From Synechococcus sp. NB0720_010 (GTDB taxonomy: Bacteria; Cyanobacteriota; Cyanobacteriia; PCC-6307; Cyanobiaceae), in the NCBI RefSeq assembly GCF_023078835.1, contig NZ_CP090898.1, forward strand, positions 932,045 through 996,044: a DNA stretch of 64,000 nucleotides, written 5' to 3'. A program made the position numbers and the translations under genes. The notes under the pieces were generated by a model. It made no database searches. It worked only from the letters and a program-made list of their open reading frames with translations, and was not told the origin of the DNA. Shown here piece after piece: positions 35,718-50,954 of the stretch (its first letter is position 1; each line of letters begins with the position of its first letter).

Positions 35718-36652
35718 GCACTCCCATCGGGAAACTCCAGAGAGTTCATCTGCGTGAGGTCTGGCGCCATGAGGCCTACGACTTCACCCAGTGGCTACAG
35801 GAAAACATCGAGATCCTCAACGAGTCCCTGGACCTCGAACTGGTGTCAGCTGAACGCGAACAAGCGGCTGGTTCCTTCAGCATCGACATCGTCGCTGAGA
35901 GTAGTGACGGCGATACCTACGTGATTGAAAACCAGCTGGAGAAAAGCAACCACGACCACTTGGGGAAGGTCATCACATACCTCACAGCCATGAAGGCTCG
36001 TGGTGCCATCTGGATCGTCTCTGAACCGCGGCAAGAGCACGTCAATGCAATGGCCTGGCTCAACGAAGCCAGTAGTGCTGACTTCTACCTCGTAAAGGTC
36101 GAGGCTGTTCGCATTGGCGACTCACCCGCAGCACCGCTACTCACGTTGATCGTTGGACCATCGGCAGAAGCGAAGGAAGCAGGCCGTGCCAAGCAGGAGA
36201 TGGCAGAGCGCTACGACATCCGTAAGCAGTGGTGGTCCCAGCTCGTCCAGCTACCTGGGGCCAAGCTTCATGCCCACATCACTCCTGGCCAATACGCCTG
36301 GATCGGGACCTCGAGTGGAGTGCGTGGACTCAACCTCAACTACGTGGTCACCAAGACCGAGTCAGGCGTTGAGCTGTACATCGACCGCGGCAAGGACTGC
36401 GAGGAAGAAAACGAAGCCATCTTTGATCAGCTCCTGGAGTCGAAAGACAAGGTCCAAGCTGCTGTGAAGTTCCCTTTGAGCTGGCAACGGCTCGATGGCA
36501 GAAGGGCATGCAGGATTCGCATAGACCTCCCAGGCGGCTACAGGTCTCCAGACTCCGAATGGCCTGAGATCCAGCAACGGATGACAGACGCTATGACTCA
36601 GTTGGAAGCGGCCTTCAAACCCGTGCTCAGAGGCCTCAAGCTCGGGAGCTAA
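35714..36652 (+). CDS. DUF4268 protein with PD-(D/E)xK-like N-terminus, within the hsd operon
   Basis: A 312-residue protein. The N-terminal half has a nuclease-like pattern: Asp58 in SFSIDIVAES, then Glu72-Asn-Gln74 in YVIENQLEKSNHDHLGK, which resembles a PD-(D/E)xK fold with Gln in the usual Lys position. The C-terminal half matches the DUF4268 type (MAERYDIRKQWWSQLVQ, VELYIDRG, WQRLDGRRACRIRI). Such genes are often inserted in restriction loci, but no role is proven. It is coupled to hsdS (4-base overlap), with hsdR 7 bases downstream. Confidence 0.8.
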   Translation: MSTPIGKLQRVHLREVWRHEAYDFTQWLQENIEILNESLDLELVSAEREQAAGSFSIDIVAESSDGDTYVIENQLEKSNHDHLGKVITYLTAMKARGAIWIVSEPRQEHVNAMAWLNEASSADFYLVKVEAVRIGDSPAAPLLTLIVGPSAEAKEAGRAKQEMAERYDIRKQWWSQLVQLPGAKLHAHITPGQYAWIGTSSGVRGLNLNYVVTKTESGVELYIDRGKDCEEENEAIFDQLLESKDKVQAAVKFPLSWQRLDGRRACRIRIDLPGGYRSPDSEWPEIQQRMTDAMTQLEAAFKPVLRGLKLGS

Positions 36653-36658
36653 CCAGCA

Positions 36659-39600
36659 ATGGCACTGCATAACGAGATCGAGTTCGAAAAGGAGATCTGC
36701 GAGTACCTAGGCAGTAACGGCTGGCTGTACCAAGAAGGTGTCGCTGATGACTACGACCGCAAGCTCGCGCTCTATCCCCCTGATCTCTTCTCCTGGCTCG
36801 AGTCATCGCAAGAAGAGGCCTGGCAGACCTATCGGCAGAAGAACGGCTCCAAAGCAGAAGCCCAACTGCTGCAACGCATTCGCGATCAGCTCAACCAGCT
36901 CGGAACGCTGGATCTCCTGCGCCAGGGGATCGAAGTCATTGGCCTCTCCAAGCCCCTAAAGCTGGCGGAGTTCAAACCCGCCCTTGGGCTGAACCAAGAA
37001 ATCCTTTCCCGCTACAACGCCAACCGGCTGCGCGTCATCCGCCAGGTCCGCTACTCACTCCACAACCAGAACAGCATCGACCTGGTGCTCTTCCTCAATG
37101 GAATCCCTATTGCCACCGTCGAACTCAAGACCGACAACACTCAGTCCATCGCCGATGCGATCTGGCAGTACAAGGACGACCGCAACCCCAAACCACCAGG
37201 CCAAACCCCAGAGCCGCTGCTGACCTTCGCTAGCGGTGCGCTCGTGCATTTCGCGGTCAGCACGCGAGAGGTGGAGATGACCACCAAGCTGTCTGGACGA
37301 GCAACACGCTTTCTTCCCTTCAACCGCGGATCGGATCCAGGCGGGAACAACTGCGGTAAGGGGAACCCGACTCCAGCAGACGACTACCCGACGGCCTACC
37401 TCTGGAAGGAAGTCTGGGAACGCGAAAGCCTGCTTGAAATCCTGGGTCGCTACTGCATCGCCGAGCGCGACAAGAAAAAGCAAATCTCCCGGATCCTCTT
37501 CCCCCGCTATCACCAGCTGATCGTCACGCGCCTGCTGCAACGGGCTGTTCTTCAGGAGGGACCAGGGCAGAAGTATTTGATCCAGCACTCCGCTGGTTCA
37601 GGCAAAACCAACTCCATCGCCTGGACTGCTCACTTCTTCTCAGAACTGCACGACGCCAACGACGAGAAAGTCTTTGATTCCGTCCTGGTGGTCAGCGACC
37701 GCAACGTGATCGACACCCAGCTCCAAGAAGCGTTGGAGTCCTTCCAGCGCCGTAAGGGAGTCGTCGCCTCCATCACCAGTGACGAGGGAAGCAAAAGCGC
37801 CAAGTTGGCGGCAGCCTTGAGCGGCGACAAGAAGGTGGTCGTCTGCACAATCCAAACCTTCCCCTATGCCCTTGAGGCAGTCAGGGAGCTTGCAGCGACA
37901 GGCGGAAAGCGATTCGCCGTCATCGCCGATGAAGCGCACAGCTCGCAAACGGGGGAGGCGGCAACCAAGCTCAAGCAAGTCCTCAGCTCGTCTGAAGTGG
38001 GGGATCTGGAGGATGGGGGAGAGGTGGATGTTGAAACCATCCTCCAAGCCCAAATGGCTGATCGCGCCAAGGAAAGCGGGATCACCTACGTCGCCTTTAC
38101 CGCCACACCCAAGGCGAAAACGATGGAGCTGTTTGGCAGAAGGCCGAACCCATCGGAGCCTGCGGGCGAAGGGAATCTGCCGGAGCCGTTCCATGTTTAT
38201 TCGATGCGGCAGGCCATCGAAGAAGGCTTCATCCTCGACGTTCTGCAGAACTACACCTCCTACAAGCTGGCTTTCCGTTTGGCTCAAGACGGCCAAGCCA
38301 TCTCAGACGAAGAAGTCGAACGCAGCTCTGCACTCAAAAAGCTGATGGGCTGGGTGAAGCTCCACCCCCACAACATCGCTCAGAAGGTTCAGATCGTTGT
38401 CGAGCACTACCGCCAGTTCGTCTGGCCGCTGCTGGATGACAAGGCCAAGGCCATGGTCGTGGTGGGCTCCAGGAAAGAAGCTGTGCGCTGGAAGCTGGCG
38501 ATTGATCAGTACATCGCCAAGCAGGGCTATCCCATCGGAACACTGGTTGCCTTCAGCGGCGAGGTCAACGACAAGGAGTCAGGACCTGAGCCGTTCACTG
38601 AACGCAGCGCCAACCTCAACCCGGGGCTGAAAGGAGATATCCGGGAGGCCTTCAAAGGTGATGACCGCCAGATCCTTCTGGTGGCTAACAAGTTCCAAAC
38701 AGGCTTCGATCAACCGCTCCTCTGCGGCATGTACGTCGACCGCAGGCTGGCTGGGATCCAAGCAGTGCAGACCCTCTCGAGGCTGAACCGCTGCTACGAC
38801 AACAAGACCACAACCTACGTGGTGGACTTCGCCAATGAACCCAGCGAGATCCTGGAAGCCTTCCAGACCTACTACCAAACGGCGCAGCTCTCAGAAGCCA
38901 CCGATCCAAACCTGATCCTGGATCTGAAGACCAAGCTGGATGCCCAGAACCATTACGACGAGTACGAAATCGACCGCGTGGTGAAGGTGCTGCTGGATGC
39001 AAACGCAAAGCAGAGCCAGCTAATCAGTGCATTGGAGCCAGTCGCGCAGAGGCTGATGAACACCTACAAGGAAGCCCGTCAAAAGCTGAGAAATGCCGAG
39101 GACTGCAACGATGCCGATGGCACCAAAGAAGCCAAGGAAGAACTGGAAGCACTGACCCTCTTCCGCAGGGACATGGGGACCTACGTGCGCTTCTACACGT
39201 TCCTCTCCCAGATCTTTGACTACGGCAACTCGTCCCTTGAGAAGCGGGCGCTCTTCTACAAGAGGCTGCTGCCTCTGCTGGAGTTCGAGCGGGAGGTCAA
39301 CACCGTTGATCTCTCCAAGGTGGTCCTCACCCACCACCATCTCCGCAACCTGGGCCAACGGGACTTAGCCCTCGGCGGAACCAAGCCCTTGCCCCCTTCC
39401 AAACCAGGAGAAGGGTCTGTTCAAGAGAAGGAAAAGGCGCTGCTCTCTCAGATCATCTCCAAGCTGAACGACCTGTTCCAGGGAGAACTCACCGACGAAG
39501 ACAAGATCACCTACGTCGGCACCGTTATCAAAAACAAGCTGCTCAACTCCGAAAAGCTCCAGCGCCAGGCAGCAAGCAACACCAAGGAGCAGTTCAGCAG

Positions 39601-39778
39601 TTCACCGGACTTGATGCCGGAGCAGCTGGATGCGGTGATCAGCAGCCTCGACGCTCATCAGTCCATGAGTGCCCAGGTCGTCAACGACCAAACCCTGCAA
39701 CGTCGAATGCTGGAACTCCTCCTCAACAACTTCAACCTCTACGAAGACCTCAAGGCCAGGGCAGGGCAAGCATCCTGA
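36659..39778 (+). CDS. hsdR: Type I restriction endonuclease subunit R
   Basis: ATP-dependent translocase-nuclease of 1039 residues. The N-terminal PD-(D/E)xK nuclease has Asp141 and E155-L-K157 (IDLVLFLNGIPIATVELKTD). SF2 helicase motifs follow: Walker A SAGSGKT at about 311-317, DEAH at 424-427 (VIADEAHSSQTGE), VAFTATPKAK and the later ANKFQTGFDQPLL and QTLSRLNRCY motifs. The C-terminal helical domain is present, so the enzyme looks intact. No frameshift was seen in the operon, so the system is predicted to be functional. Confidence 0.95.
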   Translation: MALHNEIEFEKEICEYLGSNGWLYQEGVADDYDRKLALYPPDLFSWLESSQEEAWQTYRQKNGSKAEAQLLQRIRDQLNQLGTLDLLRQGIEVIGLSKPLKLAEFKPALGLNQEILSRYNANRLRVIRQVRYSLHNQNSIDLVLFLNGIPIATVELKTDNTQSIADAIWQYKDDRNPKPPGQTPEPLLTFASGALVHFAVSTREVEMTTKLSGRATRFLPFNRGSDPGGNNCGKGNPTPADDYPTAYLWKEVWERESLLEILGRYCIAERDKKKQISRILFPRYHQLIVTRLLQRAVLQEGPGQKYLIQHSAGSGKTNSIAWTAHFFSELHDANDEKVFDSVLVVSDRNVIDTQLQEALESFQRRKGVVASITSDEGSKSAKLAAALSGDKKVVVCTIQTFPYALEAVRELAATGGKRFAVIADEAHSSQTGEAATKLKQVLSSSEVGDLEDGGEVDVETILQAQMADRAKESGITYVAFTATPKAKTMELFGRRPNPSEPAGEGNLPEPFHVYSMRQAIEEGFILDVLQNYTSYKLAFRLAQDGQAISDEEVERSSALKKLMGWVKLHPHNIAQKVQIVVEHYRQFVWPLLDDKAKAMVVVGSRKEAVRWKLAIDQYIAKQGYPIGTLVAFSGEVNDKESGPEPFTERSANLNPGLKGDIREAFKGDDRQILLVANKFQTGFDQPLLCGMYVDRRLAGIQAVQTLSRLNRCYDNKTTTYVVDFANEPSEILEAFQTYYQTAQLSEATDPNLILDLKTKLDAQNHYDEYEIDRVVKVLLDANAKQSQLISALEPVAQRLMNTYKEARQKLRNAEDCNDADGTKEAKEELEALTLFRRDMGTYVRFYTFLSQIFDYGNSSLEKRALFYKRLLPLLEFEREVNTVDLSKVVLTHHHLRNLGQRDLALGGTKPLPPSKPGEGSVQEKEKALLSQIISKLNDLFQGELTDEDKITYVGTVIKNKLLNSEKLQRQAASNTKEQFSSSPDLMPEQLDAVISSLDAHQSMSAQVVNDQTLQRRMLELLLNNFNLYEDLKARAGQAS

Positions 39779-39782
39779 AGCA

Positions 39783-40244
39783 ATGAGCCACGGAAGCGTT
39801 GGATACGGATGGAAGTGGAACTCCGCTAGGAAGTCTTTCTCAAGGGTTGCAGGTTGCTTCGCAATCGGTACATGCCTCAGCTGCGGAGTTGCTCTCGATC
39901 AGGGACTAAGCGAACCGTTGGCAATACGAAACTGCTATGCGGCAATTCGCGATGGGAAGTACAAGTCGACAAAGGACTGCAGCGAATACGCGAGGTTCCA
40001 TTTGGCGCTATACACAGAAATCGATCAGAGCACTCCTTATCGCGCAGCCTGCGGCTTCTCGCAACACAGACTGGACTACGTAAGGAGCATGCACCCCAAA
40101 GAAAAGAATCTGGTTAGCGAAGCAGAGAAGCTAAGAGACGAGGACTGCCTCGGGATCTTCAAAAGAGAAGAATTACAGACGGGGCAGAGGCCAGAAGGAA
40201 TGAAAGGAGAAGCCAGGAGGGGAGAAGAGGATAAAGACGAGTAG
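39783..40244 (+). CDS. Hypothetical Cys-containing protein after hsdR
   Basis: A 153-residue product from ATG 39783, 4 bases after the hsdR stop. A hydrophobic segment near residue 22 (VAGCFAIGTCLSCGVAL) could be a signal anchor. The next part has several cysteines (RNCYAAIRDG, KDCSEYARF, RAACGFSQ, EDCLGIF). The C-terminus is highly charged (EARRGEEDKDE). No family was recognised. The frame continues upstream inside hsdR, but that part is a shadow. It could be the last gene of the restriction operon. Confidence 0.5.
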   Translation: MSHGSVGYGWKWNSARKSFSRVAGCFAIGTCLSCGVALDQGLSEPLAIRNCYAAIRDGKYKSTKDCSEYARFHLALYTEIDQSTPYRAACGFSQHRLDYVRSMHPKEKNLVSEAEKLRDEDCLGIFKREELQTGQRPEGMKGEARRGEEDKDE

Positions 40245-40257
40245 CCAAGATCCAGCC

Positions 40258-41079
40258 ATGCCTCAAAGACCACAAAGAACAAAAAGGATGACTTCCGACG
40301 CAGAGATCAGAGAGCACAACGAGAAGGTTAGAGTGAAGTTTCGATCACTACTAGAAGTTTTAGTCCTCGAAGACGGCTCACCTCTTGAAGCAAGAGACGA
40401 GAGCAATCAAGAAGAAACAAGAAAACTTTTCAAGGAAGAAGGCAAGAGCGACTTTGAACACCAATCCTGGAGAGAGACCGAGATGCTGCCTGAGATGATC
40501 AGGCTGCACATAAACAAATATCTAAAACTCAACCCCGCGGAAAGACACGCTTTCTACACCGGTTTAGGCCAGAGTCTCAGCTTCGAAGAAAAGATGAGAT
40601 TTGAGGAAGACGTCGATGCAGACGGTCTGAGCGACAGTGAACGGTTGAAAGGCAGAAGGCTTATCGCTCCCACACACTCCCGACGGCAACTCGAGACCTG
40701 GGCAGCCGAGATTTTTTTAACGCGGGAGAAGAAGAGTCACACCAGACAAAAAGCAGGCAACGACCCGACTCCAGCAGGAAACAGGAATCCGGAACTCAAT
40801 TACGAGGAACTGATGAATAAGGCTGTAATCGTGAAAGGCACCCGCGAGGAGAAACGCATGAATACCAGAGGGACAGCAAACAAAGCCATAAACAGAGCCC
40901 TCAAAGGAAAGAACAAATCAGATCTCCCAATCAAGATTCAGAACTGCGGCAACCTAGACAAATACGAGATAAGCAGTCTTGGCGAGCCAAAGCCATGTGG
41001 AACGAATGGTGAAATGCAGATATCTCCAACAGATTGCTTGTACCGAAAGATTTCCAGCAAGCCCCAGGATCAAGACTGA
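40258..41079 (+). CDS. Hypothetical charged protein of the island
   Basis: A 273-residue soluble, very charged protein (Lys/Glu/Arg-rich) with no membrane segment. An acidic segment reads EEDVDADGLSDSERLKGRR, a form that resembles a calcium-binding DxDxDG-type loop (DVDADGLSD). The C-terminus is Cys-containing. An internal ATG at 40288 is an alternative start. The codons are A-rich compared with the flanking chromosome, consistent with acquired DNA. The 3' end overlaps the convergent DNA-binding gene by 10 bases. No function is assigned. Confidence 0.5.
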   Translation: MPQRPQRTKRMTSDAEIREHNEKVRVKFRSLLEVLVLEDGSPLEARDESNQEETRKLFKEEGKSDFEHQSWRETEMLPEMIRLHINKYLKLNPAERHAFYTGLGQSLSFEEKMRFEEDVDADGLSDSERLKGRRLIAPTHSRRQLETWAAEIFLTREKKSHTRQKAGNDPTPAGNRNPELNYEELMNKAVIVKGTREEKRMNTRGTANKAINRALKGKNKSDLPIKIQNCGNLDKYEISSLGEPKPCGTNGEMQISPTDCLYRKISSKPQDQD

Positions 41080-41402
41080 ATCAGCGAAACGCTTGTTTTG
41101 ATTGCGACTGGCTGAGCACCGTTCAGCCAGCGAAGAGCAGACACCGGATTAACGAGATAGCGCTTGCGCTGAGAAGAGGATGAAGACCGATCCATAAAAT
41201 CAATCCCAGGCCGCAAGACCCCAGACTTGATCTGTGCAACCAACCAGTCTCTTCCACAGTGGAGGTGGCGGACGGCCTCGTTGATTGGAACAAAACGGTC
41301 TGGGACTTTCTGCTGCGAGAGCCTTGAGACATCCGACTGAAGACGATCAAGCCTCTTTGTGATGTCAGACAAAGCTGCAGCAACCCTTGAAGACGAATCC
41401 AT
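41070..41402 (-). CDS. Putative excisionase-like / helix-turn-helix DNA-binding protein
   Basis: A 110-residue protein. A short N-terminal coiled coil (ALSDITKRLDRLQSDVSRL) is followed by a winged-helix-like pattern (FVPINEAVRHLHCGRDWLVA, a wing at RPGIDFMDR, then RYLVNPVSALRWL) similar to MerR/AlpA/Xis-type domains. That suggests a recombination directionality factor or repressor, but the similarity is weak. Immediately upstream is a 340-base AT-rich intergenic region. Confidence 0.5.
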   Translation of the reverse strand: MDSSSRVAAALSDITKRLDRLQSDVSRLSQQKVPDRFVPINEAVRHLHCGRDWLVAQIKSGVLRPGIDFMDRSSSSSQRKRYLVNPVSALRWLNGAQPVAIKTSVSLIQS

Positions 41403-41745
41403 ATAAACAAGACTTTCTCCTACTAATTAATTCTAAATCAGTTAATCCACAGAAAGATAGGAGCGCTGCGCTCGTAGAAGTCTGAAGTCAGACATGCTGG
41501 CAGCGAAGAAGGAAGTTTCTATAGAAGGCCAAAAAGAGCACAGCGGCACCTGAGACATCTCCAACACCTTGCCCGATCAGGAAGGTGGAAAGAAAAAAAA
41601 GAAAGGGGGGGGTTAGTGAATTAATTGCGTTCATAAAAGAAGTCTTGATGAATAAAGCATTCATGTGCTCTTGGCTCCATGGCGGCCTTCGCCATAGATA
41701 AGTCCAAGGCCATTGCCTATCGGCACAACCAATCTCATTACAACC
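41403..41745. other. AT-rich intergenic region, probable divergent promoters
   Basis: A gene-free stretch between the divergent 41402 and 41746 starts. It contains AT-rich tracts (CTACTAATTAATTC, GTGAATTAATTG), a poly-purine run at about 41590-41610 and short inverted repeats (GAGCGCTGCGCTC near 41461; CATGGCG / CGCCATAG near 41680). No RNA gene was recognised. It probably carries promoters for the genes on both sides. Confidence 0.4.
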
Positions 41746-42105
41746 ATGAAACTACTTACCGCAATCAGCGCTCTACTCCCCCAAGTACATGCCTTCCTCG
41801 ATGAAGAAGGTTTCTACCAACTGGGGGCCACGTGGATCGCCGCAGATGGCCTACGCGAACAACACAATCTGGAGATGCGCTACACGCACAACTCTGAACG
41901 TCTTGCGTTGCAGGGAGAACCAATGCCAAATGGCAGTTGGCGATACGTCTCAGCCAATGGACGTGCACACACCATCTCCGCGAAGCGAGCCAGGGAGTTT
42001 ATGGAAACAACCCACCGTCACGCAACGGTGATGGTGGGAATGCTGGATCGCCTCAAGGAAGCAGGTATCGCAGCTCCCACCTTTGAAGCAGAGCCAAATC
42101 TCTGA
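41746..42105 (+). CDS. Hypothetical protein of the island
   Basis: A 119-residue product from ATG 41746 (MKLLTAISALLPQVHAFLDE). Although the first residues are hydrophobic, there is no clear cleavage site. The remainder is a mixed alpha/beta domain (YQLGATWIAADGLREQHNLE, GSWRYVSANGRAHTISAKRA) ending in a long helix. No known family was recognised. It is followed after 94 bases by another orphan on the same strand. Confidence 0.5.
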   Translation: MKLLTAISALLPQVHAFLDEEGFYQLGATWIAADGLREQHNLEMRYTHNSERLALQGEPMPNGSWRYVSANGRAHTISAKRAREFMETTHRHATVMVGMLDRLKEAGIAAPTFEAEPNL

Positions 42106-42199
42106 GGCACTGCCTTAGCAAGAAACACCAGACGAACTTCTGCATTGCGCTTGCGGGTGCAGAGGTTCCTGATACCAAACCCATTTAAAACTTCCGAAC

Positions 42200-42802
42200 A
42201 TGAACATGATCACCAACATCTCGACCAGCGGAGCTGCTGGACCAATCACGCCAAACCTGATCACACCTGCGATGTTGGGGTGGCGCCACCCGCGAAAGGT
42301 GGCGTACATCCATCGCCATCCACAGCTCAATGACCACTGCTTGTACTTCTGGGACCACCAGGAGAACATCCCAGTGCCCACGGACTCCCAGGATCTGAGC
42401 TTCCTGCTGGAAGACATCTACGTTGAGGAGCGCGGGCAATTCAAAGCCAACAAGCTGATTATTGACGCCGACTTGGGACTCGATGGCCGACTGCGATTAG
42501 TCGTTGGGTTTTCCACTGCCTGCGCCACAACCTTGATGGCATCGCTTTCAGCACTCTCACCAGCGCTGCTGAATGGTCCACTGGCCCTCAGACTCCGGGC
42601 CGGCAGTAGTCAGGGTGTAGTCCTACCAGCGATCTACATCGATAACGAATGGATTGATGGCCGCCCACTCTCTCGTGATGACAAAGGAAATGCACTCCCG
42701 CCAATCGATCTCCTAACTGAGGTTCAGACCCTGCTACGACACGGCATGGAAGTAGAGATGCTTCCGCATCAAATACGTAAAGCCCAGCGGAGCATCCCTT
42801 GA
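42200..42802 (+). CDS. Hypothetical protein of the island
   Basis: A 200-residue protein without signal or membrane segment. It has beta-rich segments (RKVAYIHRHPQLNDHCLYFW, KLIIDADLGLDGRLRLVVGF) and a TALMASLSALSPALLNGPLAL-like helical region. The domain pattern (IYIDNEWIDGRPLSRDD) resembles small single-stranded-DNA-associated or single-domain phage-type proteins, but I cannot assign it. It sits in the same orientation as the gene before it. Confidence 0.5.
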   Translation: MNMITNISTSGAAGPITPNLITPAMLGWRHPRKVAYIHRHPQLNDHCLYFWDHQENIPVPTDSQDLSFLLEDIYVEERGQFKANKLIIDADLGLDGRLRLVVGFSTACATTLMASLSALSPALLNGPLALRLRAGSSQGVVLPAIYIDNEWIDGRPLSRDDKGNALPPIDLLTEVQTLLRHGMEVEMLPHQIRKAQRSIP

Positions 42803-42869
42803 TTCGGCAATAGCCAACGTCCTTAAGAGCAACTCAGGGGGCAGCTTGAAAAGAATGCTTAAACAGTGA

Positions 42870-43031
42870 CTAGTCCGGAGTGGAAGAGTCATCAAAACCA
42901 GCCAACTCGGTGAGCAAACGATTAAGGACTGCATTTCTGGAACGCAGCCCAAGCTCAACTCGAATATCTTCAATCCACTCAATGAGACGGGGCTCGAGAG
43001 AAACGGTGACCTTAACGAGATCCTGCTCCAC
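42870..43031 (-). CDS. 53-residue ribbon-helix-helix protein, last gene of the minus-strand cassette
   Basis: A small frame starting at GTG 43031, 3 bases after the stop of the 608-residue gene. The product reads VEQDLVKVTVSLEPRLIEWI at the start and then EDIRVELGLRSRNAVLNRLL. That is the strand-helix-helix pattern of CopG/Arc-type regulators: the beta strand VKVTVSL, helix 1 RLIEWIEDIR, and helix 2 RSRNAVLNRLLTELA. It ends in an acidic tail. Such proteins often repress their own operon. It is easy to miss because of its length. Confidence 0.7.
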   Translation of the reverse strand: MEQDLVKVTVSLEPRLIEWIEDIRVELGLRSRNAVLNRLLTELAGFDDSSTPD

Positions 43032-43034
43032 GAT

Positions 43035-44861
43035 TCAGAAAACGAAACCAGGAGGAACTATAAAGTCCATATAATAATAATCAAGTGGGTCGTCTTGGTA
43101 TCGGAAGACCTTTTTCTGAGAAGCCTCAACATCATGACCTGAAATGGTCAACTTGATATCAGTTGTCAAGCTATGAGCTGGAGCGTGAAAGTGCGAATAA
43201 CGCCGAAGTAGCTTAATCGAATCATAATTAGGTTGCTGCCTTTCTATACCAGCCGCAAACGGCCGATAAAAGTATGAGTTGGAATCAATTTTGAAGACTT
43301 GAAGAGGTAGGACACGTTGCCCCTGCGTGACCAGGGCTGGCAAGAGCCGGAAGTAGATATTGCCATCATCTCTCTTCATCCTTGAGAATATAAGTCGACG
43401 AAGCCTAGGTGCCATAACTTGCGCTCTAGACCAGGATAAGAAGGAATGTTCATCCTGATAGAAGAGCAGATGAGGGTCTGGCAAAAACTCCTCAACTCTT
43501 TTCCCGCGGTCCGTTTCAATTCGCCCCATATTTCTTCCGAAAAACGGGGCGAATGGATTCATAGTAAAAACACCAAGCAAGGAGCCGACGATGGTTCCAA
43601 GGCGGGCATTTTCTTTGGCCAACAAATCCTTTTTATCTCCAACTTCGGCCAAAGTAAAGCGATGCATCTCCTTGACAAGCCTTGAATACATATCCTCATC
43701 AAAACACGGGAGACTTAAGACATCATCATTAAGTCCGGAGTCAACAATCAAAGGAAGGTCATTAAAGAATGACTGAAAAGAGATCTCTGGATTAGCAAGT
43801 GCAAACTTCAAATCAGCCTCATGAGAGCCAGTGGGAGTAAAACCCGCAGGAATGGATGCTAAAGACGCAGAGAAAACAGGCAGTACACCAGCAACTGGCG
43901 CCAAAGAACCATTGGCAACGGCTTTAGCAGTTGTGATATTTGCTGAGCAAGCTGCAGATGAGGATGTTATCTCCGATTGATTACGTGAAAGAGTTGTATC
44001 AGAAGTTGAGAGTGGAGAACCTGAAATGCGTAACTTCGCGACAACTTGTCCAGAAACAACCCAGGAGTCTTTTGGACAGAGGATGGACTCCAAGGTTCCA
44101 TCAAATGAAGATCTGACAAAGATTCGTTGACCAGCCCAATCAACGGAAAAGACGGCATCTCCCTTTTTAACCGAAGCACCTTCGAATGCGATCCAAGAAG
44201 AGATAAAGCCCGTATATGTTATATCGTGCACCTTTGGCATTTTGACATCCAACAATCCGCCAGAGTCGGCGCCCTCCTGATTACTTGAAGTGCGCGCAGA
44301 ATAAGCCTGCAAAATAGACTTCGGATGCCGCTTTTCTTGATACTGATAACGCAGAAAAGGAGAGGACCCCACGGTAAAGTCGCATTTCAGCCTGACAATG
44401 CTGTCAAAGTTGCACAAGGTATTTAAAAAGTCGCTAGGTATAGCGACTGATGCACACTTTATGTATGTAAGGATGGAAAGACAAAAGTCTTTCGCAAGCG
44501 GGTCGGAGTTTCTTTGCCACTCCAGAAGACAGATTTGTGCAATATTCGCCCATATTTCACATGCCTGAAAATGAGGACGAGTGCAAAACATCCTCACAAC
44601 TGATCCGTCCGCAAGAACTAAGTGCAGGAATTCTTCTTCAACAGCTAGTGAATCAAGATCCTGATAACCCCACCCTAGGGCCTCAGAATTTGCACCATCA
44701 TTAAGGCCAAGAAGGAAACCTGAGTCAGTAAGACTTAGTTTTATTCTAAGGCCCTTAGAATTCAGAAACTTTCGGAGAGCAGACTCAGAAGATGCGCGAA
44801 AAATGCGACCCCCAAACGTAGGCTCATATTCATAGATAACCCGTACATCATCCACGAGCAA
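43035..44861 (-). CDS. Large island protein with a lipoyl/biotinyl-like domain lacking the modified lysine
   Basis: A 608-residue protein of no recognised family. Residues about 203-278 follow the biotinyl/lipoyl-attachment fold: VKMPKVHDITYTGFISSW, EGASVKKGDAVFSV, then the hairpin DWAGQRIFVRSS and FDGTLESI, and VVSGQVVAKLRI. At the tip, where lipoyl domains have Asp-Lys, it has Ala243-Gly244, so it cannot be lipoylated or biotinylated there. A Ser/Ala-rich linker (280-340), a helical part, a Gly-rich hydrophobic stretch (IVGSLLGVFTMNPFAPFFG, about 424-442) and a beta-rich C-terminus follow. It is coupled to the RHH gene. Confidence 0.65.
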   Translation of the reverse strand: MLVDDVRVIYEYEPTFGGRIFRASSESALRKFLNSKGLRIKLSLTDSGFLLGLNDGANSEALGWGYQDLDSLAVEEEFLHLVLADGSVVRMFCTRPHFQACEIWANIAQICLLEWQRNSDPLAKDFCLSILTYIKCASVAIPSDFLNTLCNFDSIVRLKCDFTVGSSPFLRYQYQEKRHPKSILQAYSARTSSNQEGADSGGLLDVKMPKVHDITYTGFISSWIAFEGASVKKGDAVFSVDWAGQRIFVRSSFDGTLESILCPKDSWVVSGQVVAKLRISGSPLSTSDTTLSRNQSEITSSSAACSANITTAKAVANGSLAPVAGVLPVFSASLASIPAGFTPTGSHEADLKFALANPEISFQSFFNDLPLIVDSGLNDDVLSLPCFDEDMYSRLVKEMHRFTLAEVGDKKDLLAKENARLGTIVGSLLGVFTMNPFAPFFGRNMGRIETDRGKRVEEFLPDPHLLFYQDEHSFLSWSRAQVMAPRLRRLIFSRMKRDDGNIYFRLLPALVTQGQRVLPLQVFKIDSNSYFYRPFAAGIERQQPNYDSIKLLRRYSHFHAPAHSLTTDIKLTISGHDVEASQKKVFRYQDDPLDYYYMDFIVPPGFVF

Positions 44862-44887
44862 ATACGAAGATGTTCAGGAAATATGGA

Positions 44888-45178
44888 CTAGAGATAAGAA
44901 TTGGCTATCTCACTATCCAGCTGCAAGTCCAACTGATCATGCAAGAAGTCTCCATTCGTATATGCTCCATCCTCAACTACTGATTGAGCTACTTTTGCCT
45001 CTAGGATTTGGTGCTCGACATCGCTTAAAGAACCATCTGTAGTTAGTGCCATACTCGCTGCAAGATCAGCAGTCATCGCCGCATCCGCGATGACTGAGTG
45101 GGTCAGCTCTTCGCCAGCTATAACATGGCCCATCAGCTGGCCACCAAAGACAGCATCAGCAAGGTCACTCATACCCAA
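44888..45178 (-). CDS. Small acidic helical protein of the cassette
   Basis: A 96-residue acidic protein (starting MGMSDLADAVFGG; an alternative start at MSD, 6 bases in). It is rich in Ala, Asp and Glu with long helical stretches (LSDVEHQILEAKVAQSVVED) and few basic residues. It has no cysteine and no signal. It lies 26 bases upstream of the 608-residue gene and 24 bases downstream of the membrane gene, in one orientation. It could be an antitoxin-like or adaptor subunit, but that is speculation. Confidence 0.55.
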   Translation of the reverse strand: MGMSDLADAVFGGQLMGHVIAGEELTHSVIADAAMTADLAASMALTTDGSLSDVEHQILEAKVAQSVVEDGAYTNGDFLHDQLDLQLDSEIANSYL

Positions 45179-45202
45179 GTCTCAGCTTCGGACCAGACTA
45201 CC

Positions 45203-45697
45203 TCAGTTCTGGAGTGCGGGCCGAAATCGGCCCAATGCAATTCCTGCATCAAAGGCCAAAGTCCGTAGCTCCTGCCTTTGATCGTCAGACAGGCCGTCCC
45301 AGAACGCATCGAAGAGATCCAAGGTCGCTTTACCTGTTCCGACCAGGCCTAGGACTGAAAGCGGGAATGCCATCCAGGGAAATACGAGCAAAACCACCGC
45401 GAGGACAGCGCTGACAGCTGCTCCTTCCTTTACTGAAGCCCATACAGTCTGAGCGACCAGCTTGATTTGGATGGTTCTGCTCAATTCCCCTCTGCGGCGC
45501 ATGGCCTCTGTACGAAGACCGGTTAAGAGGGCTTGGTAGATGGCATAGACCGCCATGCCACCAAGGGTGGATTCACCTAAAAACTCAGTTGCCGGAACGG
45601 GTCCAATGCTTCCGTTGACGTTAATAGAGGCCAGGCCCGCGAGTGGTGCAACCTCAAATCCCGCTTTGGGTATCTGAAACGGATCCATGGATCGCAT
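45203..45697 (-). CDS. Small membrane protein, first gene of the four-gene cassette
   Basis: A 164-residue protein with an N-terminal Gly/Pro-rich region and two adjacent hydrophobic segments at about residues 95-135 (EGAAVSAVLAVVLLVFPWMA, LSVLGLVGTGKATLDLF). They are preceded by an amphipathic helix rich in Arg and Gln. An alternative ATG lies at 45688. No domain was recognised. It begins a run of four genes with gaps of 3 to 26 bases. Confidence 0.55.
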   Translation of the reverse strand: MRSMDPFQIPKAGFEVAPLAGLASINVNGSIGPVPATEFLGESTLGGMAVYAIYQALLTGLRTEAMRRRGELSRTIQIKLVAQTVWASVKEGAAVSAVLAVVLLVFPWMAFPLSVLGLVGTGKATLDLFDAFWDGLSDDQRQELRTLAFDAGIALGRFRPALQN

Positions 45698-45824
45698 AAG
45701 TCATGCCACCAGTGGTAGCAGGCTAGCCAGTTGTGGAGGGGGAGCCAGCTTCCCTTATGGGAAGTCCTGCGCTGGTATGGATCTAAGCGGCAATAGAGGG
45801 GGAGAAGAGGAACCTGTTGACGCC

Positions 45825-46157
45825 TCAGCCACATATGCGACAAATGCCATATTGCTGACCTGTGCTTCTTCTCCCATAGCAACAGATCAGTTGATCACCG
45901 GCATCCAACACCGCGTCACCAGGTCCAACCCATTCGCCATACATCGAGCCCCATGGAGTAGAGGCCTCAACCGTCTTACCACCTGATGGATAGATTCGAA
46001 TCGTTGAACCCGAAAACATATTCCCCCAGTCATAACAATATCCTCCACCTCTCCACGCAGTTAATGCACATTGAGCCTTGGCAGGCAAAGCCAAGAGGAC
46101 TACTGCGACCAAGGCAACTAATGCTCTTATAAAAAGGCTTTTGCTCAGAAGCCGCAT
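45825..46157 (-). CDS. Small secreted Cys-rich protein of the island
   Basis: A 110-residue product from ATG 46157 (a GTG lies 6 bases upstream). A clear signal peptide (FIRALVALVAVVLLALPAKA) ends before QCALTAWRGG. The mature chain of about 80 residues has six cysteines (QCAL, YCYDWG, ICCYGRR, ICRICG), probably forming disulfides. No family was recognised. A secreted disulfide-rich protein within a mobile element could act at the cell surface or on neighbouring cells, but nothing proves it. Confidence 0.6.
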   Translation of the reverse strand: MRLLSKSLFIRALVALVAVVLLALPAKAQCALTAWRGGGYCYDWGNMFSGSTIRIYPSGGKTVEASTPWGSMYGEWVGPGDAVLDAGDQLICCYGRRSTGQQYGICRICG

Positions 46158-46295
46158 TATCACAAAACCACTACAAGGTGGTCAGACTGACAGCAACCGC
46201 AGTCATCCTAATCCAAGGATTATTTGACATGTAGAGAATATCTGATGCACAGCTCCCTCATCCCCCACAGGTGAGAATGACTGCAGCGCAGTGGC

Positions 46296-46326
46296 TCTGA
46301 TAGGGGAGTAAAGCTCCCCCATCAGA
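46296..46326 (-). terminator. Hairpin just 3' of the DUF3987 gene
   Basis: The stem TCTGAT-A-GGGGAG / CTCCCC-C-ATCAGA (12 pairs plus one mismatch) with loop TAAAG lies 12 bases after the stop codon. It lacks a T tract, so it may be a 3'-stabilising hairpin or a Rho-type terminator. Confidence 0.5.
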
Positions 46327-46338
46327 CCAGGCCTCCAC

Positions 46339-48786
46339 TTAAGGGAGAGGCTTCAGGACCTGGTATGAAAGCCCACCACGACCACCATTCACAATCTTCC
46401 CGACTCCGGCCGCTTCAAGTTCCTCCATAGATTTACGAGCATCATCAACTGTCTTTCCCTTTCGCTCCATTGAATTCATTTGCTTTCGGATGTCAGCCCA
46501 GGTGACTGGCAGCTTTGACTTCGATGCAAGCTCATGAATCCTGCGTGTAAAGGCTGAGAAACCCGTAGTTGTTTTTGATGCAACCTTTGAATGCATGGCA
46601 ATAGTATTTGCATCCATCAAGTCGCTCAACCTAATTGCCACCTGTAGAATCCAAATAGGGATATATTGACTAGGAATCCTGTTACTCGCATAACTCCAAA
46701 GGATGTGCAGTATCCCCGAATATCGAAGAACCTTTCCGGCAGACTTGCCAAATAAGGATTTGTGGGCAGACAGCTTAGAAGCCCGAGCATCCTTCTGCTT
46801 TTGGAATTCGTACTGACTAAACAACTGCAGTGCATGAGAATCCAGGAAATAAGTACGAGCCTCTAAGGCATAGAGCCATGAAGCAACCTTTTTCAGATCT
46901 CTTTCTGCCTTTTCACGTGCGAGTATCTCCTCTTGGGTCACCTTAGTAGGCAAAGGCTTGACGACATCAGGAAGAATTACAAATGCAAAGCGTGCCCACT
47001 TACCACTATCGTCTCCATTCTTGATCAGACTGTCAAGAACACCAGGTTGTATTGCTCCCAGGATACTAACTGCTGCTCTGCTATAACCACGATCAGCATC
47101 ACCAATACGGAGCGAGCGACAAGCCGTACCGTCATACAACTCCAGCAACTGCTGCTCATCAGCTCCCCGACCTGCTCGATAAGCATTGAAATTAGAGAAT
47201 AGGGCACTGATCTCATCTCTTTGGATCAATAGTGCACGGCCATACTCATCAGACTTTTTAAGAGCATTTACAAGTGCTTCACCTGTATAGTCATTAATTC
47301 GCAGCTCAAGTGGAACTGGCCTTGGGGGACGCTGATCCTTGCTTTTTCCTAGACACGACTGCTCCCATGATTTGATGAGTCTGGTATTACGTGCCGCATT
47401 CTCAAGGAGAACATCTTTAACCGGTTCATCAGAAAAGATCTTAAGAAGAGGCGTCTTCTTTTGCCCGGAATCTCCAACAGCAGCCGTAAATGTATTAATC
47501 GGTACTTCATAGTTAGTTGCTTGACTGCCATTAACGCGAGTCTCAAGGCGAAGCATGTTGACCATGCTGGTCATGAAGACCATGGCCATACTCACATCGT
47601 CGTAAGGGAGGTGCTCTCCAATCAGACGAAGAGCATTGGCGATTACAGGAGGAAAAATCTCAGGAAGCGTAATTTCTTCTAGATGATCAGAAGACGGAGC
47701 ATCTGCTGGTTGATCCTTCCCTTGCGTAGAACCCTTTAAGGGATGGCGAGACCCACTTGCCTCAGACGATTCAAACCGTCGTACAGCCTCTTCAAAGAGG
47801 TGTTCTTCTTCATCAGGATCTGGTACGTAATCATCAAATCCATTCAGTTCCGCATCCTCGAGTTCTTCATCAATGCAGAGATCATCTGATTCATCCTCAA
47901 CGTCAAAATGAATGCCAAGCTCTTCTGACGCAGCAGCCCACATGAAGTGCTTAGAAGTCTCTGGAGAGATCAGCCTTACCTGCCGATCCAGTACATAGGA
48001 AGGAGAAAGAGGAACGAACCGATGCTTAAACACAGCACCAGCTGCAGTATTTGACCCGTTAAGAGCAAAGGACTGACAACTGCCATCAGCAAAGATCTCC
48101 TTGAGTTCTTCGTTGTCATCAAAAGGAAGATGCACATAGCACCAAAGACTTGATCCGTTAGTCTCCAGCCGCCGTTTGAGTGGCCACCGCAAAGTCCTTA
48201 TGACATCACTCGATGTATAGAAGACGGCATTTGGTCGTGAAGTACTGGGATCATTGAGATAAGAGATTGAGTGCATCTGAGCCGCAAGACCCAATGCGAT
48301 TTGGTTGTCTTCAGCCAGCTGGATTTGTTCATGAACAGAAGCCACACTGATCTCCTTGGACAGTGGATGAACAACAGTCCAGCCACCATCTTTCGATATG
48401 TGTGTTCGAAAGAATCCATAGAACCTTTGCCCATCTTCAGACCAACGACCTCGGATCTCTGTTCCCTCAAGGCCAAGCTGGAAGTGTGCAAGGTCGATAT
48501 CTGAGCAGTCACCAGATTCAACAAGGTCCTGAAAGTCGGAGAAACCCGTGTAGTCGTCACGGCTGAAGGTCGCATTGATGCATGGAATCACTGAAAGATT
48601 CATCTCAGCCAATGCATCAGCCGAAAGACGAAGCTGCTCGTAATACTCAGGCGTGAGGTCGTACTGCAAAACCAAAAGGCAACAACAAAGAAGCCTTGCT
48701 TTATTGCTCAAAAAAGTCCAGATCTTTTGAGCGACAATTACAGCGACATGAGCGACAAAATTGTCGCTGGTTTGTCGCTGCGACAT
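46339..48786 (-). CDS. DUF3987 domain protein, probable element replication (primase-helicase-like) protein
   Basis: Up to 815 residues. The C-terminal half (about 370-800) matches DUF3987, with a modified P-loop region AAVGDSGQKKTPLLKIFSDE at about 433-452, then INDYTGEALVNALKK, IQRDEISALFSNFNAYRAGR and SILGAIQPGVLDSLI. The N-terminal part is a separate domain with an acidic linker (about 295-335). DUF3987 proteins are frequent in integrative elements and phage satellites. The start at 48786 is doubtful because the first 40 codons cross the GCGACA box cluster; the conserved part begins near QYDLTPEYYEQL. Confidence 0.75.
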   Translation of the reverse strand: MSQRQTSDNFVAHVAVIVAQKIWTFLSNKARLLCCCLLVLQYDLTPEYYEQLRLSADALAEMNLSVIPCINATFSRDDYTGFSDFQDLVESGDCSDIDLAHFQLGLEGTEIRGRWSEDGQRFYGFFRTHISKDGGWTVVHPLSKEISVASVHEQIQLAEDNQIALGLAAQMHSISYLNDPSTSRPNAVFYTSSDVIRTLRWPLKRRLETNGSSLWCYVHLPFDDNEELKEIFADGSCQSFALNGSNTAAGAVFKHRFVPLSPSYVLDRQVRLISPETSKHFMWAAASEELGIHFDVEDESDDLCIDEELEDAELNGFDDYVPDPDEEEHLFEEAVRRFESSEASGSRHPLKGSTQGKDQPADAPSSDHLEEITLPEIFPPVIANALRLIGEHLPYDDVSMAMVFMTSMVNMLRLETRVNGSQATNYEVPINTFTAAVGDSGQKKTPLLKIFSDEPVKDVLLENAARNTRLIKSWEQSCLGKSKDQRPPRPVPLELRINDYTGEALVNALKKSDEYGRALLIQRDEISALFSNFNAYRAGRGADEQQLLELYDGTACRSLRIGDADRGYSRAAVSILGAIQPGVLDSLIKNGDDSGKWARFAFVILPDVVKPLPTKVTQEEILAREKAERDLKKVASWLYALEARTYFLDSHALQLFSQYEFQKQKDARASKLSAHKSLFGKSAGKVLRYSGILHILWSYASNRIPSQYIPIWILQVAIRLSDLMDANTIAMHSKVASKTTTGFSAFTRRIHELASKSKLPVTWADIRKQMNSMERKGKTVDDARKSMEELEAAGVGKIVNGGRGGLSYQVLKPLP
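48731..48785. repeat. Cluster of six GCGACA boxes between DUF3987 and AlpA-like genes
   Basis: Within 55 bases GCGACA occurs at 48731, 48743, 48752 and 48780, and its reverse complement TGTCGC at 48762 and 48773. Two pairs form palindromes (AGCGACAA-AA-TTGTCGCT and TGTCGC-T-GCGACA). The arrangement fits iterons of a replication origin or a multi-site operator for the divergent genes. Confidence 0.7.
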
Positions 48787-48841
48787 GCCACCACAGACCA
48801 GGCTTTCCTGTAATCATGTTTTTCGTTGGCACAAAAAACCA

Positions 48842-49042
48842 ATGAGTACTTCTCAAAATCAACTTCGACTTCTTCGGCTTCCTGAAGTCAAGAAGCGCAC
48901 AGGACTCTCCAAGTCAACGATCTACGCACGTATCGCCCAGGGTTCATTTCCAAAGCAGGTCGTCTTGGGACCACGAATTGTCGCTTGGTCTGAGAAGGCG
49001 ATTAATAACTGGATTGAAGAGCAGATCGAGTTGTTTTCCTAG
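48842..49042 (+). CDS. AlpA-family transcriptional regulator
   Basis: A 66-residue protein from ATG 48842 (MSTSQNQLRLLRLPEVKKRT). It has the AlpA/Xis winged-HTH signature (LLRLPEVKKRTGLSKSTIYA, then AQGSFPKQVVLG and IVAWSEKAINNWIEEQIE). In P4-type elements AlpA controls the integrase and excision, so it could act on the GCGACA boxes just upstream. It is divergent from the DUF3987 gene. The stop overlaps the end of the integrase remnant on the other strand. Confidence 0.85.
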   Translation: MSTSQNQLRLLRLPEVKKRTGLSKSTIYARIAQGSFPKQVVLGPRIVAWSEKAINNWIEEQIELFS

Positions 49043-49350
49043 TTGATCAACTTCAACGAGTGTTGTTGATCAACCAAGTCAGCCGAGGCCTGCATCATCG
49101 TGGTTCTTTGCTCCAGGTACTCGACACGGTTGTAGGCAGCCATCACCTTGTTCTTCTCGACATGAGCCAGCTGTCGATCCACCACTCATAAATCGACCTT
49201 CAGTTGTTCCACGACATTAGTTAGAGCAAAGGACCGGAACCCATGACCGCACATGCGGGCATCGAATCCCATCCGTTTCAGGGTCATGTTCAAGGTGTTG
49301 TTGCTGAGGTAACCGCTATTGGTTCGGCAGTCCTTAAAGAGCAAGAGGAA
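49039..49350 (-). pseudogene. C-terminal remnant of a P4-type tyrosine integrase, with in-frame stop
   Basis: Translated on the minus strand, the stretch keeps the catalytic half of a P4-family integrase. It reads CRTNSGYLSNNTLNMTLKRM, then MCGHGFRSFALTNVV with the catalytic HxxR. After an in-frame TGA at 49186-49188 it continues VVDRQLAHVEKNKVMAAYNR with the active-site His and Tyr, and ends at a TAG. The N-terminal half is missing, because the complete integrase gene begins right next to it. It is a decayed second integrase, different in sequence from the intact one. Confidence 0.85.
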
Positions 49351-49355
49351 TCTCC

Positions 49356-50648
49356 TCACAGATTGCTGAACTTCATGCCCTGTTCGAGCAGAGCATCAGA
49401 CCACGCTTCCATGAACTTACGACGCTCATCAAGGAAGTCGTGCTTGTCGTAAATACCTCGAATCTTGTCCTTCACCTGGTGTCCGATTTGGAGTTGGATG
49501 ATTTGAGATGAGAATCCCAGTTCCCTCTGTCCATAGGTCAAAACAGTCTTGCGTATCCCGTGACCCACGAAGTCACTCCCAAACCCCAGGTTTTTGATGT
49601 GCTGAGTGATGGATGAGGGATTGATGTGCCTGGTGTCGGTCCTGGGAGAAGCAAAGACGAACTCAGTTGCCCCATTCACTGCCTCCATCTCCGTCAGCAG
49701 GTCCTTGATGGGACCTGTGAGCGGGACCAGGTGGTTCTTCTCCCCTTCATCCCAGGTCTTCATCCGAGATGCAGGAACCAGCAGGAGGTCCCTCTCCGAA
49801 TCAACCTCCTCCCATCGCATCGCAGACACCGCCCCAACCCTCAACCCCGTCAGGAAGGTCATGAGAAGAGCACCACGAGTGCTCACCTGACCATTGGGTT
49901 CATTGCGGTCAAAGACTGCAAAGACCTCAGGGAGTTGCTCCCAAAGCGGATAAGGGTGCCCTTGGGTCTTGTGAGATGCCTTGTCTTTGGGGGAGGTGAT
50001 GGAGACCGCTGGGTTCTGGTCTCGCTTCATCCATCCCTTGCGGATTGCGTTCTCAAAGACCCCTTTGAGGACCATCTGCTGTTTGCGTGCTGATGTCGGT
50101 GCCTTTGCCCTGACCTTGCTCAGGTAGTCGGTCATCAACTCCCGCCCCGTCTTCCCCCCTGGGTGCTGGTGGTCCCACGACAGGAACTCCACAGGGGTCT
50201 TGTGCCCGAAAGCAGGAAGCACCTGGTTCCACAGCAGGTTCCTGTATTCCCGCTTCCCTTGCTCAGAGCAAGAAGTCCATTCAGAGAGATACGACTCGCA
50301 TGCCTGCTCCAAAGAGGGTGAGGTCGTCTGCTGGATGAATGCCTTCTGCTTATCCCGCTTCCTGTCCCTGGGGTCTCTTGCGTTCTCCTTGCTCCACGCC
50401 CGAATCAGGTCCCACTCATCCCTTGCTTCTTTGAGGGACCACTTCCCTGGTCCCTTTCCATAGACACCGATTCGCACATCCACCACAGGATTTCCCCGTC
50501 CAGGAGGGAAACGAGTGCGACCGACAAAGGACTTCCCACCTCCCTTAGAGATGGGTTCCACCACCAGGAAGAGAGAGTCCCCACAACTTTGCTTCTGACG
50601 CTTGTCCGTCGCTTTGTAAGCACGAACCTGCGAGTCAGAGAGGGACAT
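49356..50648 (-). CDS. Tyrosine integrase of the island
   Basis: Site-specific recombinase of 430 residues with all catalytic residues. Arg270 lies in FLTGLRVGAVSAMRWEE, His363-x-x-Arg366 in VGHGIRKTVLTYG, His390 in LQIGHQVKDK and Tyr400 in RGIYDKHDF. The N-terminal arm-binding part is P4-like (SDSQVRAYKATDKRQKQSCGD), then the core-binding domain at about residues 110-225. It lies between the integrase remnant and the right end, reading away from tRNA-Ser, the usual position for an element that inserts at a tRNA. It likely recognises the CCACCCACA repeats upstream. Confidence 0.95.
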   Translation of the reverse strand: MSLSDSQVRAYKATDKRQKQSCGDSLFLVVEPISKGGGKSFVGRTRFPPGRGNPVVDVRIGVYGKGPGKWSLKEARDEWDLIRAWSKENARDPRDRKRDKQKAFIQQTTSPSLEQACESYLSEWTSCSEQGKREYRNLLWNQVLPAFGHKTPVEFLSWDHQHPGGKTGRELMTDYLSKVRAKAPTSARKQQMVLKGVFENAIRKGWMKRDQNPAVSITSPKDKASHKTQGHPYPLWEQLPEVFAVFDRNEPNGQVSTRGALLMTFLTGLRVGAVSAMRWEEVDSERDLLLVPASRMKTWDEGEKNHLVPLTGPIKDLLTEMEAVNGATEFVFASPRTDTRHINPSSITQHIKNLGFGSDFVGHGIRKTVLTYGQRELGFSSQIIQLQIGHQVKDKIRGIYDKHDFLDERRKFMEAWSDALLEQGMKFSNL

Positions 50649-50657
50649 CTCAGCATT

Positions 50658-50718
50658 CCACCCACACGCATTTTATCCACCCACACAAGGGTCATTTCCA
50701 CCCACATTTCCACCCACA
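50658..50718 (+). repeat. Four CCACCCACA units upstream of the integrase
   Basis: Exact copies at 50658, 50677, 50698 and 50710, with spacings of 19, 21 and 12 bases. The last two lie within the 33-bp direct repeat, and the left end has two copies with the same 12-base spacing. This looks like an array of recombinase or accessory-protein arm sites. Confidence 0.75.
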
Positions 50719-50728
50719 CATTTATCGG
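50696..50728 (+). repeat. Right copy of the 33-bp direct repeat
   Basis: Matches 30963-30995 with a single C/T difference, in the same orientation. It lies 48 bases upstream of the integrase start and about 105 bases from tRNA-Ser. Confidence 0.85.
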
Positions 50729-50833
50729 ACACTCTGGTTTTTCCTGGGACCAACCAGGACAACAGAGCACCAAAAAAGTCCCTCACCGCAATGGGTTTGG
50801 GACTTCCAGGGTCTTGTCGGGACCTTCTCTGAA

Positions 50834-50918
50834 CGGAGAGGGTGGGATTCGAACCCACGGAAGGTTGCCCTTCAAACGATTTCGAGTCGTTCGCTTTCGA
50901 CCACTCAGCCACCTCTCC
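50834..50918 (-). tRNA. tRNA-Ser(CGA), integration site of the island
   Basis: Class II tRNA of 85 nt. The acceptor stem GGAGAGG pairs with CCTCTCC, with discriminator G. The anticodon loop CTCGAAA gives CGA (codon UCG), followed by a long variable arm and the T arm GGTTCGAATCC. Its 3' end plus two bases is duplicated at 30880-30892. Confidence 0.95.
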
Positions 50919-50954
50919 AGGCGACCCGGCCAGTGTACGGATCAAGCCGCCAGC

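Follow-up and report, generated by a model that had tools for sequence, protein, structure and literature searches.

The stretch analyzed here, called the window, comprises 64,000 nucleotides of Synechococcus sp. NB0720_010 (contig NZ_CP090898.1, positions 932,045 to 996,044), whose genome is a single contig of 2,410,448 bases. At 42870-45697 of the window, four open reading frames (ORFs) follow one another on the minus strand, denoted A (164 amino acids, aa), B (96 aa), C (608 aa) and D (53 aa). A reading made from the letters alone, the sequence-only reading, had put them forward as a four-gene unit of unrecognized proteins, perhaps serving defence or conflict between mobile elements. The four ORFs are present at these places and in one orientation, and the gaps fall in the claimed range of 3-26 bases when the listed starts are used (24 bases for A-B, 26 for B-C and 3 for C-D). 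The composition is also unlike that of the core genome, as had been claimed, with a GC content of 0.528 in the island that carries the ORFs against 0.659 and 0.658 in its flanks. The four ORFs are given below, where G363 stands for a second genome with relatives of A, B and C.

45203 to 45697, minus strand: A, 164 aa, with one strong hydrophobic stretch at residues ~98-116 (ORF list, hydropathy and family relatives)
44888 to 45172, minus strand: B, a small acidic protein, 94 aa from ATG 45172 (ORF and comparison with G363)
43035 to 44855, minus strand: C, 606 aa from GTG 44855 (ORF, profile match, structure model and comparison with G363)
42870 to 43031, minus strand: D, a 53-aa ORF, ribbon-helix-helix (RHH)-like by eye (ORF; no counterpart in G363)

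As listed ORFs, B spans 44888-45178 from TTG 45178 and C spans 43035-44861 from TTG 44861. The true starts are probably ATG 45172 for B (94 aa) and GTG 44855 for C (606 aa), because the relative in G363 points to them. B has an isoelectric point of 4.05 and a net charge of -16.

Do these genes belong together outside this island? Among 400 genomes of the family, C has matches in 46, and the match is of full length in only two, the own genome (G000) and G363, which belongs to another genus and whose C is 38% identical. The matches in the other 44 genomes are limited to residues 196-352, lie mostly in ORFs of ~430-520 aa, and were set aside as probable E2 lipoyl proteins. B is found in the same two of the 400 genomes, 57% identical and both times between A and C, so the order A-B-C is the same in the window and in G363, and conservation of gene order, which the sequence-only reading had proposed to look for, is seen for these three genes. 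As in a type II toxin-antitoxin pair, a small acidic protein is kept beside its partner in the case of B-C, in two genomes only; the two genes are 26-32 bases apart in the window and, in G363, 47-56 bases, according to the start codon chosen, and both genes are stop-free in both genomes. The G363 contig (contig 465, CAIZOZ010000465.1) comes from a metagenome bin of an uncultured cyanobacterium with a listed contamination of 4%. In a scan of 84,980 species with one genome each, which relies on short conserved peptides so that distant relatives may escape, this contig was the sole relative of C found.

In G363 the genes lie in an AT-rich insertion of 3.1 kb (locus L032 of contig 465, 8853-11952), which holds a broken A, B, C and a convergent ORF of 88 aa with no credible family. 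The GC content of the contig is 0.45-0.51 over 9.1-11.9 kb and 0.60-0.68 in the neighbours. To either side of the insertion (before 8853 and after 11952), the flanks are contiguous or at most 30 bases apart in 11 of 12 homologous loci from 7 genomes; the twelfth, L110, differs. This comparison started from 20 matches to a 232-aa neighbour gene; the match in G363 and 7 weaker ones were left out. The 232-aa gene (L032 8173-8871, beside a TPR gene) gives up to three matches per related genome, and no match in 26 of the 39 genomes searched. Both junctions fall inside a single contig, and the flanks keep the order seen in relatives, so the insertion is not a contig-end artefact. The main new result is therefore that A, B and C form a unit elsewhere too, and do not merely share this island. 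Because a distant relative has the same genes in the same order in an insertion of its own, of ~3 kb, A-B-C probably travel and work together, judging from the sequence comparison. The fourth gene did not follow them: a tblastn search of the G363 locus with D gave no match, so that the four-gene unit of the sequence-only reading is reduced to three. No recombinase was recognized within the 3.1 kb of the insertion, and exact inverted repeats of 8 bases or longer are absent from its outer 200 bases. An integron cassette was considered, as the ends look faintly attC-like by eye; their folding did not exceed that of shuffled sequences (z 0.27 and -0.66).

The two copies also allow selection to be estimated from the differences per codon position between window and G363. 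For B the values at positions 1, 2 and 3 are 0.37, 0.25 and 0.60, and for residues 326-606 of C, which are 56% identical, they are 0.35, 0.26 and 0.66. The rest of C gives 0.61, 0.49 and 0.65 for residues 1-120 (27% identity) and 0.63, 0.51 and 0.70 for residues 121-325 (25% identity). The rate at third positions is thus more than double that at second positions in B and in C 326-606, hence B and the C-terminal domain of C are under clear constraint, and the remainder of C is fast. The parts of C are as follows.

44505 to 44855, minus strand: PH/PTB/FERM-F3-like fold, residues ~1-117 in the 606-aa numbering (low-confidence model)
44031 to 44249, minus strand: Biotin_lipoyl (PF00364), residues 205-277 in the 608-aa numbering (profile match)
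43035 to 43883, minus strand: C-terminal domain, residues 327-608 in the 608-aa numbering (56% identical in G363)

The first 127 residues of C, folded alone, gave a model with a mean predicted local distance difference test (pLDDT) of 53.8, in which the strands and a final helix come in the order of a PH domain. Its best Foldseek E-value was 1.3e-3, with none at E<=0.001, while VIA-align gave Z up to 9.3 over 97 residues and Z>=8 in 126 of 995 chains. The best 50 of 973 Foldseek rows and 50 VIA rows are, by title or known fold, PH, PTB, FERM or EVH1-like folds or proteins containing them. Pfam has no match to the N-terminus of C. Thus the N-domain is likely, on this model, to be PH-like, and we say likely because the model is weak. 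The middle part scores 26.9 bits against Biotin_lipoyl over positions 2-73 of 73, above the Pfam cut-off of 22.1 bits, and 30.5 bits when the piece is taken alone; several E2 models of NCBIfam match it as well (best E 1.4e-8), far under their cut-offs. It spans nearly the whole Biotin_lipoyl profile, a domain known for example from the E2 subunits of 2-oxoacid dehydrogenases (1ghj). It differs from these in that the lipoyl lysine of 1ghj (ETDK) is aligned with glycine in C (DWAG), the counterpart stretch IDDNRG of G363 has no lysine by eye, and no acyltransferase domain was found. The C-terminal domain has a glycine-rich, moderately hydrophobic stretch near residue 422 (606-aa numbering). It gave no credible further relative in 377 genomes of the phylum, G363 not being among the matches; a G716 row was dropped (50 residues, 2 stops, E 0.0011), and a lone weak match to 1dus (MJ0882; E 0.037, 16.5 bits) was not believed. 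By sequence comparison it is a constrained domain without known relatives.

A, by contrast with B and C, is common by itself. Its family occurs in 89 of the 400 genomes, the own included, from 20 of 59 genera, with two matches in 7 genomes and one elsewhere, and the places vary among the 11 loci read. The claims that none of the proteins matches a known family and that A is a dedicated membrane component are therefore not supported, the former also because C passes the Biotin_lipoyl cut-off. Since A-family genes are widespread and independent of the cassette, A is not a part reserved for this cassette. The sequence-only reading had named homologues occurring singly and never together as evidence against the unit; this holds for A, but B and C are only ever found together. 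The closest relatives of the window A are in G363 (74% identical, broken) and G225 (72%), and ten other aligned copies are 42-71% identical. Within its 162 codons the A of the G363 cassette is interrupted by 3 stops (TGA, TAG and TAA, once each), and a second A-family gene elsewhere in that genome (C312), 55% identical, has none; in the own genome the cassette copy is the only A and is stop-free. An A that is needed but replaceable by a chromosomal relative would fit this pattern, although two genomes make an anecdote.

In some genomes A has other followers than B and C. A gene of 228 aa matches strongly (E<1e-50) in 7 of 50 A-positive genomes, each time directly behind A, and in 0 of 30 A-negative ones; the 50 were taken from the 88 A-positive genomes other than the own, and the counts leave out weaker rows in five further genomes, one of them A-negative (G200). 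These loci are L044, L046, L047, L048, L066 (in pieces), L067 and L068. The first half of the 228-aa protein is HNH-like by eye, and the second half has hydrophobic stretches patterned like A. The gene is absent from G000, where A is followed by B and C, and B bears no likeness to its product by eye; the 228-aa gene thus threw no light on B or C. In L046, L048 and L068 the gene before A resembles a PD-(D/E)XK nuclease, the Pfam match having been run on L046 only. In L066 (G195) and L065 (G102), A-type or related genes adjoin phage head genes, with the major head protein phrog_212 in both and scaffold phrog_206 and portal phrog_145 in L065; these loci may be what is left of a prophage, satellite or transfer agent. 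In G225 (L043 9042-12343), a stop-free A gene and a 5' fragment of hsdM lie between tRNA-Ser(tga) and a tRNA-end repeat. The hsdM fragment is 81% identical to hsdM of the island in the window, recombinase fragments lie just beyond, and the stretch is read, from its gene content, as the remnant of a related island.

In the window, all four ORFs are carried by an integrated element of ~19.95 kb (30880-50832) seated in a tRNA-Ser gene, so the claim of an island with restriction genes is supported, and the island is a mobile one. Its main features are:

50832 to 50844, unstranded: attachment (att) core at the 3' end of tRNA-Ser(cga), which spans 50833-50919 on the minus strand (13-base repeat, empty sites)
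30880 to 30892, unstranded: far att core of the element (13-base repeat; exact empty sites in G092 and G269)
49356 to 50648, minus strand: tyrosine recombinase, Phage_integrase (family profiles)
48761 to 49042, plus strand: AlpA-type excisionase/regulator (PHROG and Pfam profiles)
46339 to 48786, minus strand: DUF3987/helicase-like protein (Pfam, PHROGs and genome search)
32629 to 39778, plus strand: type I restriction-modification operon with hsdM, hsdS, a DUF4268 protein gene and hsdR (family profiles)

Att repeats, a tyrosine recombinase and empty sites, the marks of a tRNA-integrated element, are thus all found. For the empty sites 14 congener loci were matched and 11 of them read: in two (G092 and G269) the outer flanks are joined with an overlap of exactly the 13 bases, in L128, L130, L133 and L134 the flanks are within ~330 bases, and five are without the left flank. 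A 41-base repeat with 90% identity sits 70-100 bases inside both element ends. In L123 (G064), homology to the window runs into the recombinase region, up to 50140, and a related element is therefore probably present in the same tRNA-Ser gene of this congener, as far as the alignment tells. The DUF4268 protein gene (35714-36652) is embedded between hsdS and hsdR.

Does the rest of the element follow B and C? At E<=1e-20, relatives of the DUF3987 protein turned up in 22 of the 230 other genomes searched. Twelve DUF3987 loci were read, 11 from those genomes and one from G265, and A, B, C and the recombinase are absent from the stretches read; in G265, beyond the stretch read, there is an A gene at a distance of ~6.5 kb from DUF3987. 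Since the loci read hold neither B nor C, the replication module does not track them, as judged from these loci. Among these loci, L093 also showed a portal gene and L099 a weak W187 row.

Is there any known family that explains the cassette? A, B, C and D were each run against Pfam, PHROGs, NCBIfam and PADLOC, and C, its C-terminus, A and D were compared with PDB sequences. Neither B nor C matched a toxin, nuclease or defence family in the four libraries, or a toxin-antitoxin family in Pfam and NCBIfam. PADLOC gave nothing at E<=1 for A, C and D, and PHROGs gave nothing below E 0.072 for A-D, in a scan that took in ten proteins of the island region, the restriction genes not among them. Rows for DUF4064, TRAP-delta, DpdH, OsmF and IMS_C were dropped as weak or below cut-off. 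Scans of viral contigs gave no relative of A, B or C, and A has none on phages or plasmids. For C there is no relative on plasmids; on phages the lipoyl part alone was matched and the C-terminus not at all, and three Listeria phage rows that cover only the lipoyl part were set aside. The statement that no known defence, phage or plasmid family accounts for the cassette is thus upheld by profile, phage, plasmid and viral-contig searches. The likeness of D to an RHH protein is by eye: Pfam gives nothing at E<=1, and among its four PDB rows at E<=10 there is no clear RHH repressor (one weak AvtR row, E 0.46). The best PDB row of D, 7on8 (SAKe6AR, E 5.6e-8), was set aside, as it covers 16 residues with no stretch passing alone. 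In the part of the literature consulted, no paper deals with PH, lipoyl and phage defence together, and the word "undescribed" rests on that and on the family libraries.

Tycheposons of marine picocyanobacteria carry defence cargo on tRNA-integrated islands. The carrier in the window shares with such islands and with satellites the att site, the tyrosine recombinase, AlpA, the DUF3987 gene and the restriction operon, but A-B-C matches no catalogued system and also occurs without this island, in G363. Restriction genes are found within kilobases at both loci. In G363 they are Mrr, an N6-methylase with HsdR_N, and AAA_21, all by profiles and ~2-9 kb away, and a further gene reads like a specificity subunit by eye only; the high-GC TPR and 232-aa genes stand between them and the insertion.

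What might the cassette do? Its linkage and mobility are observed, and from here we infer a membrane site, roles for A and B and a conflict function. A-B-C is an accessory cassette of three genes that travel together among picocyanobacteria and are carried in the window by the tRNA-Ser integrative element. It would be a membrane-associated conflict module, used in defence or to keep competing elements out. Its central protein would be C, in which the PH-like N-domain and the unmodified lipoyl-like domain would serve as variable docking or sensing modules, and the conserved C-terminal domain, with its glycine-rich hydrophobic stretch, would act at or within the membrane. B, small and acidic, might restrain C or be its chaperone, and the membrane partner would be A, replaceable by a chromosomal relative. 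Conservation of 56% in the C-terminus against 27% and 25% in the other parts would fit a fixed effector with variable sensing parts. A conflict module is favoured over a housekeeping role because of the constrained end, the fast docking domains, the acidic neighbour, the occurrence as a unit and the restriction genes nearby. That A-B-C is such an element-borne module, with B restraining C and A as membrane partner, is a possibility favoured only tentatively. The fuller picture is doubtful: a mobile conflict system of picocyanobacteria not described before, in which PH-like and unmodified lipoyl-like domains are joined to a new effector domain, with an acidic restrainer and an A of its own or from the chromosome.

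Several points should be counted against the conflict module. Two copies of A-B-C are known in all, too few to judge an association with defence genes; the defence neighbourhood is weak with n=2 and physically separate in G363. A may not belong to the unit, since it is broken in one of the two copies, and D, counted earlier as its regulator, is outside it. The full-length model of C has a mean pLDDT of 31.5 and is unusable, and no active site of C can be named. The G363 relative reaches 12.5-15.9 bits against Biotin_lipoyl, under the Pfam cut-off. The C-terminal stretch has a modest hydropathy (Kyte-Doolittle, 19 residues) of 1.37 in the window and 1.66 in G363, and the strongest stretches lie elsewhere in C, 1.67 near residue 317 in the window and 1.79 near 105 in G363. 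Membrane insertion of the C-terminus is thus doubtful on hydropathy, because the stretch is modest and not the strongest in either protein. In PADLOC, B matched only DpdH, at noise level (11.5 bits, E 0.011, 70 of 1206 positions). Defence is neither excluded nor demonstrated for A-B-C.

Other explanations draw on the same observations. A-B-C may be accessory genes outside any conflict, in which C is a trafficking, secretion or envelope-assembly protein with B as helper and A as membrane protein, carried as niche cargo; this is possible, though somewhat doubtful. General interaction modules include PH-like folds and lipoyl-like domains that lack the lysine, and lipoyl-like barrels are found in membrane-fusion proteins. 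The PH-like and unmodified lipoyl-like parts of C recall such adaptor or membrane-fusion proteins, B and C match no toxin, nuclease or defence family, and A-family genes are mostly single-copy in varied chromosomal places. However, the rarity of B and C (2/400) and the form of a short insertion are unusual for a housekeeping or envelope role, and no transporter gene was recognized beside A-B-C in the window or the G363 contig. Alternatively, C could be a growth inhibitor and B its acidic antidote, a pair by which the element is kept, with A and D as bystanders. In biochemistry this overlaps the conflict module, and it is consistent with a small acidic B directly upstream of a large C in both genomes, with B and C only ever together, and with G363 copies of B and C that are stop-free beside an A with three stops. 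Yet the families of toxin-antitoxin pairs gave no match, and usual type II toxins are far smaller than C, so from the sequences we consider this unlikely.

The genes could also be non-functional as a system, hitch-hiking in decaying mobile DNA. The 3 stops in the G363 A speak for decay, as do the G225 remnant, where only A, the hsdM fragment and recombinase fragments are recognized, and the little codon-position contrast in the N-terminus and middle of C. But no stop interrupts B or C in either genome, and differences at their third positions (for C, in the C-terminus) are more than twice as frequent as at the second; decay is judged quite improbable. Least weight is given to a phage or satellite part, that is, a structural, ejection or helper-interference protein, which we disfavour as very improbable. 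In its tRNA site, recombinase, AlpA and DUF3987 the carrier is like satellites and islands of that sort, genes of the A family or related to it adjoin phage head genes in G195 and G102, and the DUF3987 protein has a weak "head morphogenesis" row (phrog_324, E 8.6e-4), ranked below its helicase row (5.4e-11). For the cassette proteins, the PHROG, phage, plasmid and viral-contig searches gave at most the lipoyl part of C.

If the conflict module is real, picocyanobacteria would have a defence or exclusion module of unfamiliar make-up, and natural controls are at hand in the stop-free copy, the copy with a broken A and the empty sites. Even without a function, the C-terminal domain of C is of interest as a constrained domain lacking known relatives, and the G363 insertion poses the puzzle of how a short block moves without a recognized recombinase. 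One more ORF should be noticed in the window, upstream of A at 45825-46163. It gave no credible family and no match in tblastn of the G363 locus; its 112 aa have a signal-peptide-like start and several cysteines.

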